A stretch of 62,609 nt of DNA from a virus: IMG/VR virus record IMGVR_UViG_3300028909_000024, positions 1 to 62,609 of that record; one strand, 5' to 3'. The notes beneath the pieces were generated by a model, which saw only the letters and a program-made list of their open reading frames with translations, was not told the origin of the DNA and ran no database searches. The translations under genes and the position numbers were made by a program. Shown here one piece after another: positions 27,591 through 62,609 of the stretch (within the stretch, counting starts at the first letter, position 1; every line of letters begins with the position of its first letter).

Positions 27591-27696
27591 GGCTGCAAAA
27601 TCAGGCTGCAAGAGATTTGTAAACAAACTCCGACATGGCTGCAAGAGGCATTGCCGGAATGACCGACATTATCTATCTTGCAGCCACCTAAGATAG
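27591..27696. promoter_or_regulatory. Divergent control region with four GGCTGCAA(G) sites and a -10 inverted repeat
   Basis: GGCTGCAA lies at 27591-27598, GGCTGCAAG at 27604-27612 and 27637-27645, and its reverse complement CTTGCAGCC at 27677-27685. A leftward promoter fits TTGCAG (27644-27639), 17 bases, TACAAA (27621-27616), with its -35 inside the third site. A rightward promoter fits TTGCCG (27651-27656), 17 bases, TATCTT (27674-27679). An inverted repeat CTATCTT/AAGATAG (27673-27679 and 27690-27696) covers that -10 box. The layout resembles a phage genetic switch, probably bound by the adjacent XRE protein. Confidence 0.6.
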
Positions 27697-27706
27697 GGTG
27701 ACACGA

Positions 27707-29741: not shown

Positions 29742-30698
29742 ATGAGCTTTGTAGCTACCGTATGGGCGTGGAAGACAGGGGCCAAGGGCCTGGACAAGCT
29801 TGTCCTGCTTAACTTGGCTAACCGCTGTGATGAGATAGGAAGGACATGGCCTAGCGTGGAACGGATAGCCCAAGACTGTGGCATATCTGAAAGAGCTGCG
29901 AGAAACGCACTCGCTGAATTGGTCAGCCTTGGGTTAATAAAGGTTGAGCGCCGTCAGAGGAAAACTAACCTGTTCCACGTCCTGTTTCCTGACCTTTCAA
30001 AGGAAATCGTGGTCAATGCTCCATCGGATGCTTTGATTTCAGATACTTGCGAGATGGGTGCAGGATATGCCCCCATAAGGGGGCACGATATGCCCCCATC
30101 AGATTTAACCCTGCACGATGTGCCGAATAAGACCCATTTGACCGGCACATCAGAGCATCTTGATCGGCACATCGTGCAAAGTTTGCCTGCATCTCGTGCC
30201 CCCGAATCTAAAAGAGAATCTATTAAGGAATCTGATGCAGATTCCGGTGGCCTGTTTGGAGATGTCATTCCTTCAAAGCTGCAAAGTCCATCATCCGAAA
30301 ACGATGCATCAGGGTTTGCAGACTTTTGGCGCGCTTACCCGAGAAAGGAAGCTAAAGGGGTAGCTGAGAAAGCTTATGCTCGCGCGCTATCCCGTGGGGC
30401 AAAATCAAGCGAACTACTGACGGCTTTGAAATCCACGCAGTTCAACATGGAAGATGAAGGAAAATTTATCCCGCATCCTGCAACATGGTTGAACCAAGAT
30501 CGATGGTTGGATGTGCCGATTTCTGTCACGATTGATGGTGTCGTGAAGAGGAAATATGACCCCCGCTATTACGCACCCAACCCACCTGCGGAAGTGGCAA
30601 AACTGCCCAAGCCTCACTTTTCGCGGCCAGAATATGAGCCATGGATGGAATCGCACCATGGAAACTCCACCCCGCTACCCAAGGACGCCAAGCGATGA
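29742..30698 (+). CDS. Replication initiator / helicase-loader-like protein with winged helix
   Basis: A 318-residue protein. The N-terminal winged helix (RTWPSVERIAQDCGISERAA, then RNALAELVSLGLIKVERRQ) is the DNA-binding type of phage replisome organisers. A flexible middle (about 95-200) is encoded by a repeat-rich DNA segment. The C-terminal domain FADFWRAYPRKEAKGVAEKA through FIPHPATWLNQDRWLD is typical of phage replication proteins. The stop overlaps the primase-helicase start (ATGA), as expected for a replication pair. Repeats inside the gene suggest that it carries its own origin, as lambda O does. Confidence 0.75.
   Translation: MSFVATVWAWKTGAKGLDKLVLLNLANRCDEIGRTWPSVERIAQDCGISERAARNALAELVSLGLIKVERRQRKTNLFHVLFPDLSKEIVVNAPSDALISDTCEMGAGYAPIRGHDMPPSDLTLHDVPNKTHLTGTSEHLDRHIVQSLPASRAPESKRESIKESDADSGGLFGDVIPSKLQSPSSENDASGFADFWRAYPRKEAKGVAEKAYARALSRGAKSSELLTALKSTQFNMEDEGKFIPHPATWLNQDRWLDVPISVTIDGVVKRKYDPRYYAPNPPAEVAKLPKPHFSRPEYEPWMESHHGNSTPLPKDAKR
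30064..30203. repeat. Clustered direct and inverted repeats inside the initiator gene, candidate origin
   Basis: GATATGCCCCCAT occurs at 30064-30076 and 30087-30099. TGCCCCC/GGGGGCA form an inverted pair at 30068-30074 and 30079-30085. A 14-bp perfect inverted pair TGCACGATGTGCCG and CGGCACATCGTGCA lies at 30112-30125 and 30165-30178, with another CGGCACATC at 30143-30151. GGGGGCACGA at 30079-30088 recurs inverted at 30194-30203. Such iteron-like density within an initiator gene resembles lambda-type origins. Confidence 0.55.
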
Positions 30699-32488
30699 AA
30701 TATGAAACAGTTCCTGGGATGCTGATTGAAAACGGCATCATGACGAAGTCTTTTCGGGCTGGTCATTCGGAGCGCATAGTTTGCCCAAAATGTGCAGGGG
30801 GAAAGACGCGGGAGAAATGCCTTAGCGTCACGATCGACAATGACGAAATGGGAGCTGTTTGGACGTGCTTCCGCGGGAATTGCGGATGGAAAGGGGGTGG
30901 TAAAGTCGGGACTGAACGAAGCGCAACCGTCTACAACATTGCCCCCAAAGTGGCTGCAAATGCCATTAAGCCGGAGCCTCATAGACCGGAAGCAATCCAG
31001 CGGGGAGATTTGCTCTATGGATTTTTTGCAGGACGGAAGATAAGCCCGGAGACGGTTGATGAGTTTGGGTGCTATTCGACAAAATCTCAGGCCCCAAAAT
31101 TCAAAGACGTTGATTTCATCGTATTCCCCTATCTCTACCGTGGGGAATTGGTTAACCGAAAGATCCGTTCAACCTGCAAGCAGTTCATGTTGCAGGACAA
31201 ATCTCCTCTCCCAACGCTCTTCAACATAGACGCGATCCAATCCCCTGATGTCGTCATTTTCGCAGAGGGCGAAATAGACGTGATGTCTCTTCATGAGGCT
31301 GGGTATCCGCAATCGGTTTCCTTGAAGGATGGCGCGCCGGCAAAGCTCAGCGAAGAGGGTTCAGACAGCAAGCGGTTTTATGCGCTGAACACCCATCATG
31401 AGTTGCTTAGCGTGGTGCAGAAATTCATCCTGGCAGGCGATATGGACGGCCCTGGGATGGTCCTACGTGAAGAGATCGCAAGGCGGCTGGGCAAGGACAA
31501 ATGCTGGCTGGTGACGTGGCCCCAAGACTGCAAGGATGCGTCAGATTGCCTTGTGAAGCACGGGCCAGACGTTGTCCGAGGTCATATCGAAGCTGCCCAG
31601 CCATATCCTCTTGAAGGGGTGAGATTAGTCAGCGGTGAAACGCTGCAGGGTTATCTGGATCTTCCTCCGCCCCGCGTGTTGTCGATGGGCACAGCCAATT
31701 CAAACGCCAAGATGAAGCTGCCAGGTGATGGCAGACTAATCATTGTCACAGGCATCCCATCCAGCGGCAAAAGCTCATGGACCATGTTTGAGATGGTTCA
31801 TTTGATGCAGGCGGAGGGGCGCAGGTTCCTCGTATTTTCCCCAGAGATGCAGCCATTCCAAGAGTTCCTAAAGGCGTGCGCCCAAATCTACTTGGGCAAG
31901 CCCACAATGTGGGGGCGGCATCTTTCCCCCGAAACCAAGATTGCTACCCGTGATGAGATAGCGGAGGCCGGGGATTGGTTGCGGGGGAAGCTTAGTTTCC
32001 TTGAAAGCGATGCCGAGGATACTGCTCCAACCCTTGAGTGGATCATGGAAATGGCTAAGAGCATGATCCTGCGTGAAGGCGTCACCGACCTGCTCATAGA
32101 CCCATGGAACGAGGTCGAGCACATGCGTGGCAATCTTACAGATGTCGATTACATCAGCCGTTCCCTGCAGCGCCTAAAGGCGTTTGGTCTTCGCCATGGA
32201 TGCAACGTGTGGATTGTGGTCCACCCCACAAAATTGCGTCCTGAGAAGCCAGGGCAGCCTATTCCAGCCCCATCAGGGTATGACATCAACGGTGGCGCAA
32301 TGTGGTTTAATAAGGCGGACATCGGGATCACCGTCCATCGTCCGACCAATGTAACAGAGGTCACCTTGTGGAAGTCTCGATTTATGCGGTGGGGCCGCAG
32401 GGACACGAAGTTTTCCATCTCTTATGATCCGGAAACGGGTCGATTTTCCGATTTTGATCTTCCCGATTTAGACGAAAATTCAGAGTGA
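30695..32488 (+). CDS. Primase-helicase (T7 gp4/Twinkle type)
   Basis: A 597-residue protein; the start overlapping the preceding stop (ATGA) is chosen. The N-terminal zinc-binding domain has CPKC and CFRGNC. The toprim primase domain has FAEGEIDVMSL with its Glu and LAGDMDGPG with the DxD acids. The C-terminal DnaB/RecA-type helicase has Walker A GIPSSGKSS and TDLLIDPWNEV as Walker B, then VWIVVHPTKL. This one protein would both prime and unwind. No phage DNA polymerase is present, so it probably works with the host replicase and the initiator encoded just upstream. Confidence 0.88.
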   Translation: MKYETVPGMLIENGIMTKSFRAGHSERIVCPKCAGGKTREKCLSVTIDNDEMGAVWTCFRGNCGWKGGGKVGTERSATVYNIAPKVAANAIKPEPHRPEAIQRGDLLYGFFAGRKISPETVDEFGCYSTKSQAPKFKDVDFIVFPYLYRGELVNRKIRSTCKQFMLQDKSPLPTLFNIDAIQSPDVVIFAEGEIDVMSLHEAGYPQSVSLKDGAPAKLSEEGSDSKRFYALNTHHELLSVVQKFILAGDMDGPGMVLREEIARRLGKDKCWLVTWPQDCKDASDCLVKHGPDVVRGHIEAAQPYPLEGVRLVSGETLQGYLDLPPPRVLSMGTANSNAKMKLPGDGRLIIVTGIPSSGKSSWTMFEMVHLMQAEGRRFLVFSPEMQPFQEFLKACAQIYLGKPTMWGRHLSPETKIATRDEIAEAGDWLRGKLSFLESDAEDTAPTLEWIMEMAKSMILREGVTDLLIDPWNEVEHMRGNLTDVDYISRSLQRLKAFGLRHGCNVWIVVHPTKLRPEKPGQPIPAPSGYDINGGAMWFNKADIGITVHRPTNVTEVTLWKSRFMRWGRRDTKFSISYDPETGRFSDFDLPDLDENSE

Positions 32489-35570: not shown

Positions 35571-36416
35571 TCATACGCCGCATCCTGAATCTTCGCAGGG
35601 AATATGCCGCTCATTCAGGTCAAACGGCAGAGACCCCTGATCTCGGATGACACGCTCCATGGTCGCATAGTCTTCCCGATCTGCGCGGAACGTTCCGCCA
35701 GCGCCGACACCATGCGGGATAGCCTCCATCTGCGGCCACCAAGCCATGCGGAGCGGATGATCCTTGATCATGCGCGAGATAGCAGCGCGATTTTTCAGGA
35801 AGCATCCATCGCAGTTTCCTTCCCAAGGCCCTTTGAGGCGAAGGTCGAATGGTTGCTCTCGCCAAAACTCGAACACTTGTTCTTCGGTGATACCAGCCTC
35901 AGCTAAAGGGCACGCGTTATGCCACCGGTCTTTTTTGGTGCGTTCACGGTCTAACGCCCTGGCGACCCGCTTGGGCTCATCAGCACGAAGGCCAACAAGG
36001 CTCAACCAGTGCGTCCAGCCGAGCGATTGCAAAAACCGCTTTTGAGTGCGGATCTTCAGTTCAATGGTGCAGAACCGGCTGACAGGATTTGGAAGCATGG
36101 ACTTGCTTCGCAGCATCGCCTCGAACGGCTCACCATTTCGACTAGTCGAGTTATGGTTCACCTCGATGACGATCGGACCAGAGGCCGATCTGGAATATTC
36201 CAGCCAGCGAACGGTCACATTCCAAGCTGATGCGCAATCTCGGACGAAGTCCAGCGTCGCCGGCATCTCGCGCCCGGTATTAGCGAAGCACACCACGACA
36301 TCAGGAGGCAGCGCGCCCCCATGTGCTTGGAGGATGCGCCAGAGCATGTAGGCCGATGTCCGTCCACCACTGAACGAGACAACAGCAGGCCCAGTAATGA
36401 AGAACGGATCAGCCAT
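35571..36416 (-). CDS. PAPS-reductase-like / PP-loop ATP pyrophosphatase family protein
   Basis: The start coupled to the upstream stop (TGATG) gives 281 residues. The PP-loop SFSGGRTSAYML binds ATP, as in PAPS reductases and adenine nucleotide alpha-hydrolases. CFANTGREMPATLDFVRDC continues the fold. A Cys pair in GNCDGCFLKN and Cys residues in SRFCTIELK and the C-terminal CEDSGC could bind a metal or cluster. In DNA phosphorothioation DndC has this fold, and phages carry related proteins with unclear substrates. Sits among small unidentified genes, so its role cannot be read from context. Confidence 0.75.
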   Translation of the reverse strand: MADPFFITGPAVVSFSGGRTSAYMLWRILQAHGGALPPDVVVCFANTGREMPATLDFVRDCASAWNVTVRWLEYSRSASGPIVIEVNHNSTSRNGEPFEAMLRSKSMLPNPVSRFCTIELKIRTQKRFLQSLGWTHWLSLVGLRADEPKRVARALDRERTKKDRWHNACPLAEAGITEEQVFEFWREQPFDLRLKGPWEGNCDGCFLKNRAAISRMIKDHPLRMAWWPQMEAIPHGVGAGGTFRADREDYATMERVIRDQGSLPFDLNERHIPCEDSGCGV

Positions 36417-36955
36417 CACTCCCCTCCCGCGCGGGCGCTCTGGCCGAGAGCGGCGCGTGCGATGCGACGGATTACGAACATTCCAACCGTCAGCCCCCAC
36501 GCCTCCTTCTCGATTTCCTGCAAAGCCGCCTTCTGCTGCTCAATCAGCACATTTGCCGATGCGATCTGCGCCGCGTGCGTCGCCTCAAGCTCGCGGATGC
36601 GGTCGTTCAAGGCGGCAATCGTCGCATCCTTCTCGCGGCACTGGTTGCCCAAGGCGTCCATCGTGTCCCACGCATCCTTGACCTCGGCAGCGAGCTTTGC
36701 GTTTTCGGCACGCGCCGCTGCCAGATCGGTTGCGTCCGTGGGTGATGCCTGTCCCCGGTAGTTCCATTCGAGCAAATGCGCCGTCACAGGTGAACTGCCA
36801 CTTCCAGTCGATGTCCTAAGCCACTCAGGGGTCGGTGAACTGAACCACCTCCAGACCTCAAGGCCCTGCCTAGGATGCTCTACCCAGTGCAAACTGCCAT
36901 CCTCCGCACCCTCGGGTGGCACGCATGCCGGTAACGCCATCAAATGCTGCGTCAT
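36416..36955 (-). CDS. Coiled-coil accessory protein, 179 aa
   Basis: A 179-residue protein. The first 70 residues have aromatic-rich motifs (LEVWRWFSSPTPEWLR), then a long coiled coil (AARAENAKLAAEVKDAWDTM, DRIRELEATHAAQIASANVL) and a short hydrophobic-basic end. Translationally coupled on both sides. No family recognised. Confidence 0.55.
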   Translation of the reverse strand: MTQHLMALPACVPPEGAEDGSLHWVEHPRQGLEVWRWFSSPTPEWLRTSTGSGSSPVTAHLLEWNYRGQASPTDATDLAAARAENAKLAAEVKDAWDTMDALGNQCREKDATIAALNDRIRELEATHAAQIASANVLIEQQKAALQEIEKEAWGLTVGMFVIRRIARAALGQSARAGGE

Positions 36956-58370: not shown

Positions 58371-58448
58371 TGGTCGGGGAGGCAGGATTTGAACCTGCGG
58401 CTTTTTGGTCCCAAACCAAGCGCTCTGGCCAGACTGAGCTACGCCCCG
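58371..58448 (-). tRNA. tRNA-Pro (anticodon TGG)
   Basis: A full cloverleaf on the minus strand: acceptor CGGGGCG, D-stem GCTC/GAGC, anticodon loop TTTGGGA with TGG, T-stem GCAGG/CCTGC around TTCAAAT, and an encoded CCA end. The acceptor has one mismatch (position 6 with 67). It could support proline CCN codons, of which the phage uses many. Confidence 0.88.
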
Positions 58449-58452
58449 GAAA

Positions 58453-58530
58453 TGGTTGCGGGGAACGGATTTGAACCGTTGACCGATCGGGTATGAACCG
58501 ATTGCTCTACCAGGCTGAGCTACCGCCGCG
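58453..58530 (-). tRNA. tRNA with CAT anticodon (Met-like), initiator-like acceptor end
   Basis: A minus-strand cloverleaf: D-stem GCTC/GAGC, anticodon stem ATCGG/CCGAT with loop TTCATAC (anticodon CAT), T-stem AACGG/CCGTT around TTCAAAT, and 3' CCCCGCA-ACCA as in bacterial initiator tRNA. Pairing CGCGGCG with CCCCGCA leaves a C1-A72 mismatch, the mark of initiator tRNAs, plus one mismatch at 6-67 and an extra base before the D-stem. Initiator, elongator or Ile2 identity cannot be settled by eye. The encoded CCA is present. Confidence 0.78.
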
Positions 58531-60697: not shown

Positions 60698-62609
60698 GCG
60701 GCAACGGCAATTTACCGCCTGATCAATGGCCCCCTGGATACACGCCAAACGCTGCGGAGTGGGATGCTGCGTTTTCTGGCTTGGTCCGCAATGTTGGAAC
60801 GGCCACAACGGCAGGAGAATTGGCCGAATTTGCAGACAGCACAGGTCTCAACCTTGTGGGGGTTCCAAACACGCTGCTGACTGCCGTTCAGAGCGTATCA
60901 ACCATCGCCGCTCTGCGTGCCTTGACGACTGTCACAGGCGCCGAAAGCATTGCCTACGTTGAAGGCTATGCGGCGAATGGAGACGGCGGTGAGGGGGTTT
61001 TCACAGTCAATTCCTCGGATACGACATCGGCAGATAACGGCGGCACTATCATTGTCGATGGGTCGGCCCGGCGCTGGTATCGCAGCCTGCATGCCTGTTC
61101 TGTTTCAGCCCATCACTTTGGCGCAACGGTCAATGCAGGGGTGGATTGCTCTGCCTCGGTCAATGCAGCGATCAACTTTGTGGCTCTGACTGGTGGCCTC
61201 GTTACCCTTGAAGCTGGGACTTATACCGTTTCCAGCACCATCATCATGAAGACCAAAGTGGGCCTGCAAGGTAAAGGTCATCAGAAAACATTCATCGTTG
61301 GCGCTGCTGGAACCACCATGGATCTGGTGCAGACCTATCAGTTCCCCGCGCTGACCGGCACCAACACGGTTGGCGGCCCCTATGGCTGGTCCATCAAGGG
61401 CATCAGCTTCAATGGCCTAAAAGCATCCCGATCCGCCGGCCGGTGCGTTGCGATCTATGGCTATGACTATGTGATTGATGATTGCGAATTCTTCAACGCT
61501 CATGGGGATGGCGTCTATTCGGAGTGGGCGACCTCGGGCAGCGTTCCTGTGGCCTCGGGTGGCAACGGGATGGAAGCCCTGATGGAGAACGTCAAGTTCT
61601 TCCAAAACGGCGGAAACGGCCTGACGTTCAATGGCCCGCATGATTCGGGCATCATCAATGCCCTGTCGTTCCTGAACACAGGATACGGGATCGCAGCAAA
61701 TCAAACGGCCAATTATTCCGGCGGCTGCAACCTCATTACTGTTCATGCATATGCCAACGGCAATCACGGCATTTACGTGAATACTGGCGTCAACATGGGT
61801 CAGGTCCAAAGCGAAAGTAATCTTGGCGCCGCTGGTGGCTTCTATATTGACACAGCGGGTTTTGTCGTTGGGTCCGATATCACCGCTTATTCAAACGGTG
61901 GGTTTGGGATGCAGGTCAATGGCGGCTTGTCTTCTATGTCTAACCTCTTTTTTCACGCCAATGGCACCAATGGCTTGGTGGTCAACGGGGGCGCCAATAC
62001 GTTCTCAAACGTCTTGTCCAGCAACAATGGACAGGACGGGGTAATCCTCACCTCCACTGGCACATCCAATATTATCTCCGGGTTGCTTTGCCAGTCCAAT
62101 GGCAGTTTTGGCGTGGCTTGCTCGGGATCGGATAACGCCATCACGGGCATTTTGGCTGAGTTCAACACGGGCGGCGGCGTGACGATCGCCAATGGGGTCG
62201 GTTTCGTCCGGATGTCTGGTGAGGTCAACAACAACGGGGCTGGCGCGGTTCAGGTGCCTCTGGGCACCATGGGTGCTGGCTGCATGATTGATCTGGCCGT
62301 GTTTACGGTCGCAGGCCAGACGGCGTGGACTGGGAATATCGGCAATAATTTCGTCCGCATCGCTGTGGCCGGTGCTGGCGCTGGCAGTCCGATTGATAGC
62401 GGTCCCGGTGTAACCGATGGGTCTAGCGCGAACGGCGGCCAGATCGGGGAAGTTGCGACAGTTCAGGGGTTTGGTGTGGCTCTGACCTCTGGAACCTCAG
62501 CGACCATAACCTCAATGGGCCTAACCCCAGGTGACTGGGATGTCACAGGTGTGGGGTTGGTCACGCCAAGTGGCGGAGTGACGATCTCTAACTTTGCGTC
62601 CAGCACATC
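60694..62609 (+). CDS. Beta-helix tailspike (continues at 1-356)
   Basis: The 5' part of a 704-residue tailspike; the reading frame is open to the end of the window and continues at base 3. N-terminal region (PPDQWPPGYTPNAAEWDAAF) is an attachment part; from about residue 150 a right-handed beta-helix follows (SVNAAINFVALTGGLVTLEA, with many G/N-rich rungs such as NGGFGMQVNGG). This pectate-lyase-like fold binds or cleaves surface polysaccharide. It overlaps the gene upstream by four bases. Confidence 0.82.
   Translation, partial: MSGNGNLPPDQWPPGYTPNAAEWDAAFSGLVRNVGTATTAGELAEFADSTGLNLVGVPNTLLTAVQSVSTIAALRALTTVTGAESIAYVEGYAANGDGGEGVFTVNSSDTTSADNGGTIIVDGSARRWYRSLHACSVSAHHFGATVNAGVDCSASVNAAINFVALTGGLVTLEAGTYTVSSTIIMKTKVGLQGKGHQKTFIVGAAGTTMDLVQTYQFPALTGTNTVGGPYGWSIKGISFNGLKASRSAGRCVAIYGYDYVIDDCEFFNAHGDGVYSEWATSGSVPVASGGNGMEALMENVKFFQNGGNGLTFNGPHDSGIINALSFLNTGYGIAANQTANYSGGCNLITVHAYANGNHGIYVNTGVNMGQVQSESNLGAAGGFYIDTAGFVVGSDITAYSNGGFGMQVNGGLSSMSNLFFHANGTNGLVVNGGANTFSNVLSSNNGQDGVILTSTGTSNIISGLLCQSNGSFGVACSGSDNAITGILAEFNTGGGVTIANGVGFVRMSGEVNNNGAGAVQVPLGTMGAGCMIDLAVFTVAGQTAWTGNIGNNFVRIAVAGAGAGSPIDSGPGVTDGSSANGGQIGEVATVQGFGVALTSGTSATITSMGLTPGDWDVTGVGLVTPSGGVTISNFASST
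62453..62609. repeat. Right copy of the terminal overlap (same as 1-157)
   Basis: Matches 1-157 except T at 62579 where the left copy has C at 127, changing GCG (Ala) to GTG (Val) in the spike. The difference may be a sequencing error or a variant within the sampled population. Confidence 0.9.

Follow-up and report, generated by a model that had tools for sequence, protein, structure and literature searches.

A probable replication origin within the HTH_36-type initiator gene of an uncultured phage, built of dyad iterons and an adjoining A+T-rich array

Does this uncultured phage carry its replication origin within the very gene that encodes its replication initiator? The question is raised by a repeat cluster at 30064–30203 of IMG/VR virus record IMGVR_UViG_3300028909_000024, which was analysed in its entirety (62,609 bp, referred to as the window) and in which an earlier note had pointed to a candidate origin. 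Origins within initiator genes have long been known. The window may represent a complete genome. Its ends (1–157 and 62453–62609) are direct repeats of each other, imperfect and about 157 bp long: the first 30 bases reappear at 62453, the last 30 bases at 128. No near-identical known phage matched its right-hand 24.6 kb. Away from the locus, its minus strand holds a phosphoadenosine phosphosulfate reductase-like gene (35571–36500; phrog_424, 1e-57) and a tandem of tRNA-Pro and tRNA-Met genes (58371–58530).

Judged from its sequence, the protein encoded around the cluster is a member of the HTH_36/phrog_270 phage replication initiators, and its initiator activity is suggested by this family membership and by the neighbouring primase/helicase gene (Table 1). 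The predicted structure consists of two confident domains (residues 1–80 and about 191–260) with a linker between them. Foldseek matched the N-terminal domain to winged-helix regulators and to the N domain of plasmid initiators (4pql, 4pt7), and this winged helix is presumed to be the iteron binder. The C-terminal domain is presumed to be the helicase-loading part, a function that we infer. Although the fold resembles the plasmid initiator N domain, Pfam RepA_N (PF06970) is absent from the initiator. Likewise, Pfam Phage_rep_O (PF04492) gave no match in this protein, whereas lambda O and P22 gp18 match it strongly. In a profile comparison with lambda O the winged helices aligned at a probability of 1.6%, and the Foldseek list for the initiator includes the O protein of phage Min27 (1.2e-7).

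All repeats considered here fall within the linker-coding DNA. Six related sites (30059–30200) conform to varying degrees to the iteron consensus KGCACGATRTGCC, i.e., a GCA-N5-TGC dyad, and no further perfect or one-mismatch copy of KGCACGATRTGCC occurs in the whole record. Their spacing is mostly 22–23 bp, or about two helical turns, and the sites at 30144, 30166 and 30188 are exactly 22 bp apart. A local palindrome, GGGGGCA-cgata-TGCCCCC, spans 30079–30097. The 13-base direct repeats described earlier were recovered as exact copies of GATATGCCCCCAT at 30064–30076 and 30087–30099, and the perfect inverted repeat, reported as 14 bases long, is present but measures 15 (TGCACGATGTGCCGA at 30112–30126, with its reverse complement at 30164–30178). 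The cluster as a whole is real and far beyond chance, although its proposed end at 30203 falls short of the feature, which continues through 12-mers (30204–30239) and a palindrome (30227–30245).

Table 1. Features of the initiator locus (coordinates in the window).
Feature	Position	Strand	Description
Replication initiator gene	29742..30698	+	318 aa; phrog_270 1.1e-38 (residues 1-261, both domains); Pfam HTH_36 1.3e-11
N-terminal winged-helix domain, residues 1-80	29742..29981	+	pLDDT 89-98; HTH_36 = residues 17-66
Disordered linker, residues 82-193	29985..30320	+	pLDDT about 50 (predicted structure); repeat excess over shuffles
Iteron 1	30059..30071	+	TGCAGGATATGCC; one mismatch to KGCACGATRTGCC
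Iteron 2	30082..30094	+	GGCACGATATGCC; perfect match to KGCACGATRTGCC; core of GGGGGCA-N5-TGCCCCC palindrome
Iteron 3	30112..30124	+	TGCACGATGTGCC; perfect match to KGCACGATRTGCC
Degenerate iteron (half-site)	30144..30156	-	GCTCTGATGTGCC; one half intact; exactly 22 bp before next site
Iteron 4	30166..30178	-	TGCACGATGTGCC; perfect match to KGCACGATRTGCC
Iteron 5	30188..30200	-	GGCACGAGATGCA; two mismatches to KGCACGATRTGCC; 22 bp after iteron 4
Tandem 12-mer array, candidate unwinding element	30204..30239	+	GAATCTAAAAGA/GAATCTATTAAG/GAATCTGATGCA
Palindrome closing the array	30227..30245	.	GGAATCTGATGCAGATTCC; P = 0.01 here
C-terminal domain (FxxFWxxYPRK ... PATWLN)	30321..30527	+	kept in all homologues; pLDDT mostly above 85
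Primase/helicase gene	30695..32488	+	phrog_239 1.3e-75; Toprim domain; start overlaps initiator stop codon

The linker contains 58 near-identical 12-mer pairs. Shuffling the order of its codons 1000 times gave 5.2 such pairs on average and never more than 23; in 1000 synonymous permutations that preserve the protein, the count reached 31 at most. Among 2603 segments of 144 bp taken across the record, the one starting at 30049 scored highest (44, compared with 20 for the next unrelated segment). Moreover, the iterons are read in different frames and lie in both orientations, so the peptide is not what is conserved and selection acts on the DNA. The next most repetitive place in the record is situated between the leftward and rightward early genes, immediately ahead of a gene at 27698 for a small HTH regulator. 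It holds four GGCTGCAAGA-like copies, three direct and one inverted (27591–27693), and is likely a repressor operator cluster.

Directly downstream of the iterons lies the array of GAATCT(AAAAGA/ATTAAG/GATGCA) units. Nowhere else in the record do three GAAYC follow one another at 10–14-bp spacing, and codon shuffling produced this arrangement in 3 of 5000 trials. From 30204 onwards, 40 bp have an A+T content of 70% (vs. a mean of 43%), which is above 99.9% of comparable segments, with 11 other regions of the record equalling this level, and the coding strand of the array region has 16 A vs. 9 T. With a period of 12, all units of the array are read in the same frame. By itself the array carries little weight (P = 0.09 in the general test), which it gains from the homologous arrays found in the family. 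The closing palindrome was rejected as a family trait, being significant in only 4 of 44 homologues, and is a feature of this record.

The family, large and for the most part unstudied, was assembled as homologues of about 21–36% identity drawn from IMG/VR, from GTDB genomes and from the records of phages and plasmids. Neither a single-protein search nor a search with the record's own iteron pairs yielded close relatives, and a 10-sequence alignment was dropped as a search query for being too divergent. Sixty-nine non-redundant homologues were picked by homology only, a set of 73 linkers additionally includes loci from the array scan described below, and 95 segments taken elsewhere in these loci, from genes other than the initiator, served as controls. 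Compared with codon-shuffled controls, the linkers of the 69 homologues were self-similar at lags of 22–23 (z 13 and 11) and 11–12 (z 4 and 8), while the flanking domains in the 73-linker set had no such lag peaks. A significant 20–26-bp repeat was present in the same linker of 57 of the 69 homologues (vs. 8 of the 95 controls), and a significant 10–16-bp array in 40 (vs. none of the controls). Both elements were significant in 34 loci; in 27 of these the iterons come first and the array follows downstream.

A strand bias marks the 44 arrays that were looked for on the downstream side. Their coding strand has more A than T in 43 cases (43% A and 17% T overall); 22 of them contain AACC two or more times and none contains GGTT, and arrays in the family often have GAACC cores. 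Short dyads are also enriched in the linkers, with an excess that peaks at a 5-bp spacer as in the lambda iterons. Examples are CGGCA-ccaga-TGCCG in an Azospirillum linker and GTGAC-agaga-GTCAC in that of a Vibrio phage (four copies each), and GGTGCA-ccagt-TGCACC in a Pseudomonas phage. Covariation between recognition helix and iteron initially gave a partial r of 0.16 (P 0.0005). After filtering for relatedness and G+C it fell to 0.08–0.10, and another segment of the domain reached a similar value; this weak signal is taken as suggestive only. Soon after the array, a C-run/G-run hairpin (CCCCC...GGGGG) was seen in loci L064, L138, L140, L167, L177, L185, L195 and P22 (L210, 2963–2987), without significance across the whole family. 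The arrays of L005 (EBPR podovirus 2) and L209 (lambda), whose initiators belong to different Pfam families, are both followed by an inverted repeat with shared arms (GTCAGAG...CTCTGAC).

Without use of protein information, 2.9 million viral contigs were scanned for exact matches to three copies of GAACCNTC at 11-bp spacing, which returned 47 sites on 46 contigs. Of these, 39 lie inside a same-strand reading frame matching the initiator profile and 5 more, preceded by visible iterons, in initiators that are truncated or have a broken frame, bringing the total in initiator genes to 44; the remaining 3 look unrelated. All three frames are used across the whole site set (19, 21 and 7). Repeats of 11 bp shift frame from one unit to the next, and this again places selection on the DNA. 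Outside any recognisable initiator gene, GAACC 11-mer arrays were observed in L028 (9484–9513; five copies in AT-rich non-coding DNA), L037 (8122–8151) and L048 (5112–5141), and these are possibly origins located outside the gene. The literature searched (open-licence papers only) gave no specific account of a GAACC array, nor a description of the shared strand-biased array.

Lambda O and P22 gene 18, for which iterons or origin are annotated, were read as positive controls. Both showed dyad iterons 20–24 bp apart (P = 0.002 each) followed by an A-rich coding strand. P22 additionally has a significant 14-bp array (ACAAAAGACAATAT, P = 0.004), whereas that of lambda is not significant (P = 0.14). 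The repeats of this record lie between the two folded domains as in these controls, which agrees with the earlier suggestion of a lambda O-like placement.

Taken with the initiator and primase/helicase genes, the position of the repeats between the domains and the recurrence of the layout in most of the 69 homologues, this suggests that 30056–30245 is very probably a phage replication origin inside its own initiator gene, composed of iterons as binding sites of the winged helix and, next to them, an unwinding element. The earlier proposal of an origin in this gene is thereby supported. GC skew, offered as a check, was uninformative as to the origin and does not mark 30064–30203, its detrended curve having its minimum at 38.3 kb and its maximum at 12.9 kb. 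For this uncultured phage, the search for the origin would be confined to a stretch of about 190 bp, and such a rule should help to find origins in many phages with unstudied replication. More tentatively, and with rather less confidence than doubt, we propose that HTH_36 phage replicons share an in-gene origin of two parts, in which private dyad iterons at 22–24 bp are followed by a strand-biased array of 11–15-nt units with a widely common GAACCATC-like core. The array would then be a sequence-specific single-strand site for the initiator or helicase loader, as a counterpart of the RK2 13-mers or DnaA-trios. With the array core common and the iterons private to each phage, the family would separate phage-specific recognition from a shared opening step, and such a two-part grammar, if true, would permit origin prediction directly from metagenomic sequence.

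It could also be that the iterons constitute the origin while the downstream array is a mere A+T-rich stretch with no specific element. We hold this to be unlikely, though by no means negligible: the P values of the arrays of this record and of lambda accord with it, and the A+T-rich region of lambda has been described by base composition (PMC7466680), but arrays reached significance in more than half of the homologues and in none of the controls, and the GAACCNTC unit recurs in unrelated phages though it is not AT-rich. Moreover, the unwinding element of RK2 contains four 13-mers, all of them required, and TrfA binds these on their A-rich strand (PMC4980987).

Considerably less probable is that the repeats serve as clustered operators by which the initiator or some other regulator governs transcription of the replication operon, with replication starting elsewhere. 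Short dyads whose halves are 5 bp apart are a usual form of winged-helix/HTH operators, and regulation of their own gene is common among initiators. However, the sites lie mid-gene, about 300–450 bp past the start codon, and not at the promoter, and no comparable copy is found upstream of the initiator gene. The same place is occupied by an iteron cluster in distant homologues, lambda and P22, and a candidate operator cluster of different sequence exists at 27591–27693. Finally, a linker that is disordered and varies in length and sequence across the family might have gained its repeats as a by-product of low-complexity expansion and contraction, without DNA function, but this is highly improbable and in large part refuted by the recurrence of one DNA word in different frames and orientations, by periods (11, 22 and 23 bp) that are not multiples of three, by protein-preserving permutations that fall short of the repeat score and by GAACC 11-mers in all three frames.

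For an origin composed of iterons and an unwinding element, we envisage that initiator dimers would bind the five or six KGCACGATRTGCC dyads via their N-terminal winged helix, and that several dimers about two helical turns apart would wrap or bend the DNA. The resulting strain, together with supercoiling and transcription through the gene, could open the A+T-rich 12-mer array (30204–30243), where the initiator or a partner would capture one strand. The primase/helicase from the adjoining gene might then be loaded, perhaps through the C-terminal domain of the initiator. The linker, being disordered, tolerates the peptides that the DNA sites impose. Origin opening and capture by initiators have been called an open question (PMC5043065), which the HTH_36 family makes testable by comparison.

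In its layout, the locus is of the lambda-type embedded-origin architecture, i.e., linker-borne dyad iterons at about 20–24 bp and a downstream A+T-rich, strand-asymmetric region. In lambda, O dimers bind the iterons and, on supercoiled DNA, open an adjoining A+T-rich region of 40 bp that is strand-asymmetric (PMC5043065); single strands of this region are also bound by O (PMC7466680). Lambda O and P22 gene 18 likewise have mid-gene dyad iterons and then an A-rich coding strand between the initiator domains, and the lambda iterons have the same 5-bp spacer. The systems differ in iteron sequence and in the initiator, which is Phage_rep_O there and HTH_36 here, and the next gene here encodes a primase/helicase and not a lambda P-type loader. 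The lambda-O-like reading in the earlier note is supported for the layout, with two corrections: the protein gives no match to Pfam Phage_rep_O, and the neighbouring AT-rich array, likely the unwinding element, had been overlooked.

Similarities extend to plasmids. In RK2 oriV, iterons adjoin a repeated 13-mer unwinding element whose A-rich strand is captured (PMC4980987), although oriV has DnaA boxes and sits outside the initiator gene; between 27552 and 31835 of the window, no match to TTWTNCACA with at most one mismatch was found, and the host's own box may differ. The pSK41-type RepA_N origin has its Rep boxes centrally in rep, in the linker-coding part between two domains (PMC5703833), and differs in its RepA_N initiator. 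HTH_36 proteins have a direct precedent in the pPR9-type replicon, whose Rep has an HTH_36 N-domain (pfam13730) instead of RepA_N, exchanged along with the origin region; the pPR9 mini-replicon replicates (PMC5703833). N-domain and origin region thus move as one functional unit there, in a plasmid with a RepA_N-type C-terminal domain, and the likeness concerns the domain rather than aligned origin sequences. With in-gene origins already known, including that of a plasmid with an HTH_36 initiator, the embedded origin itself is not a new kind, and the candidate fresh part is the recurring strand-biased array common to the family.
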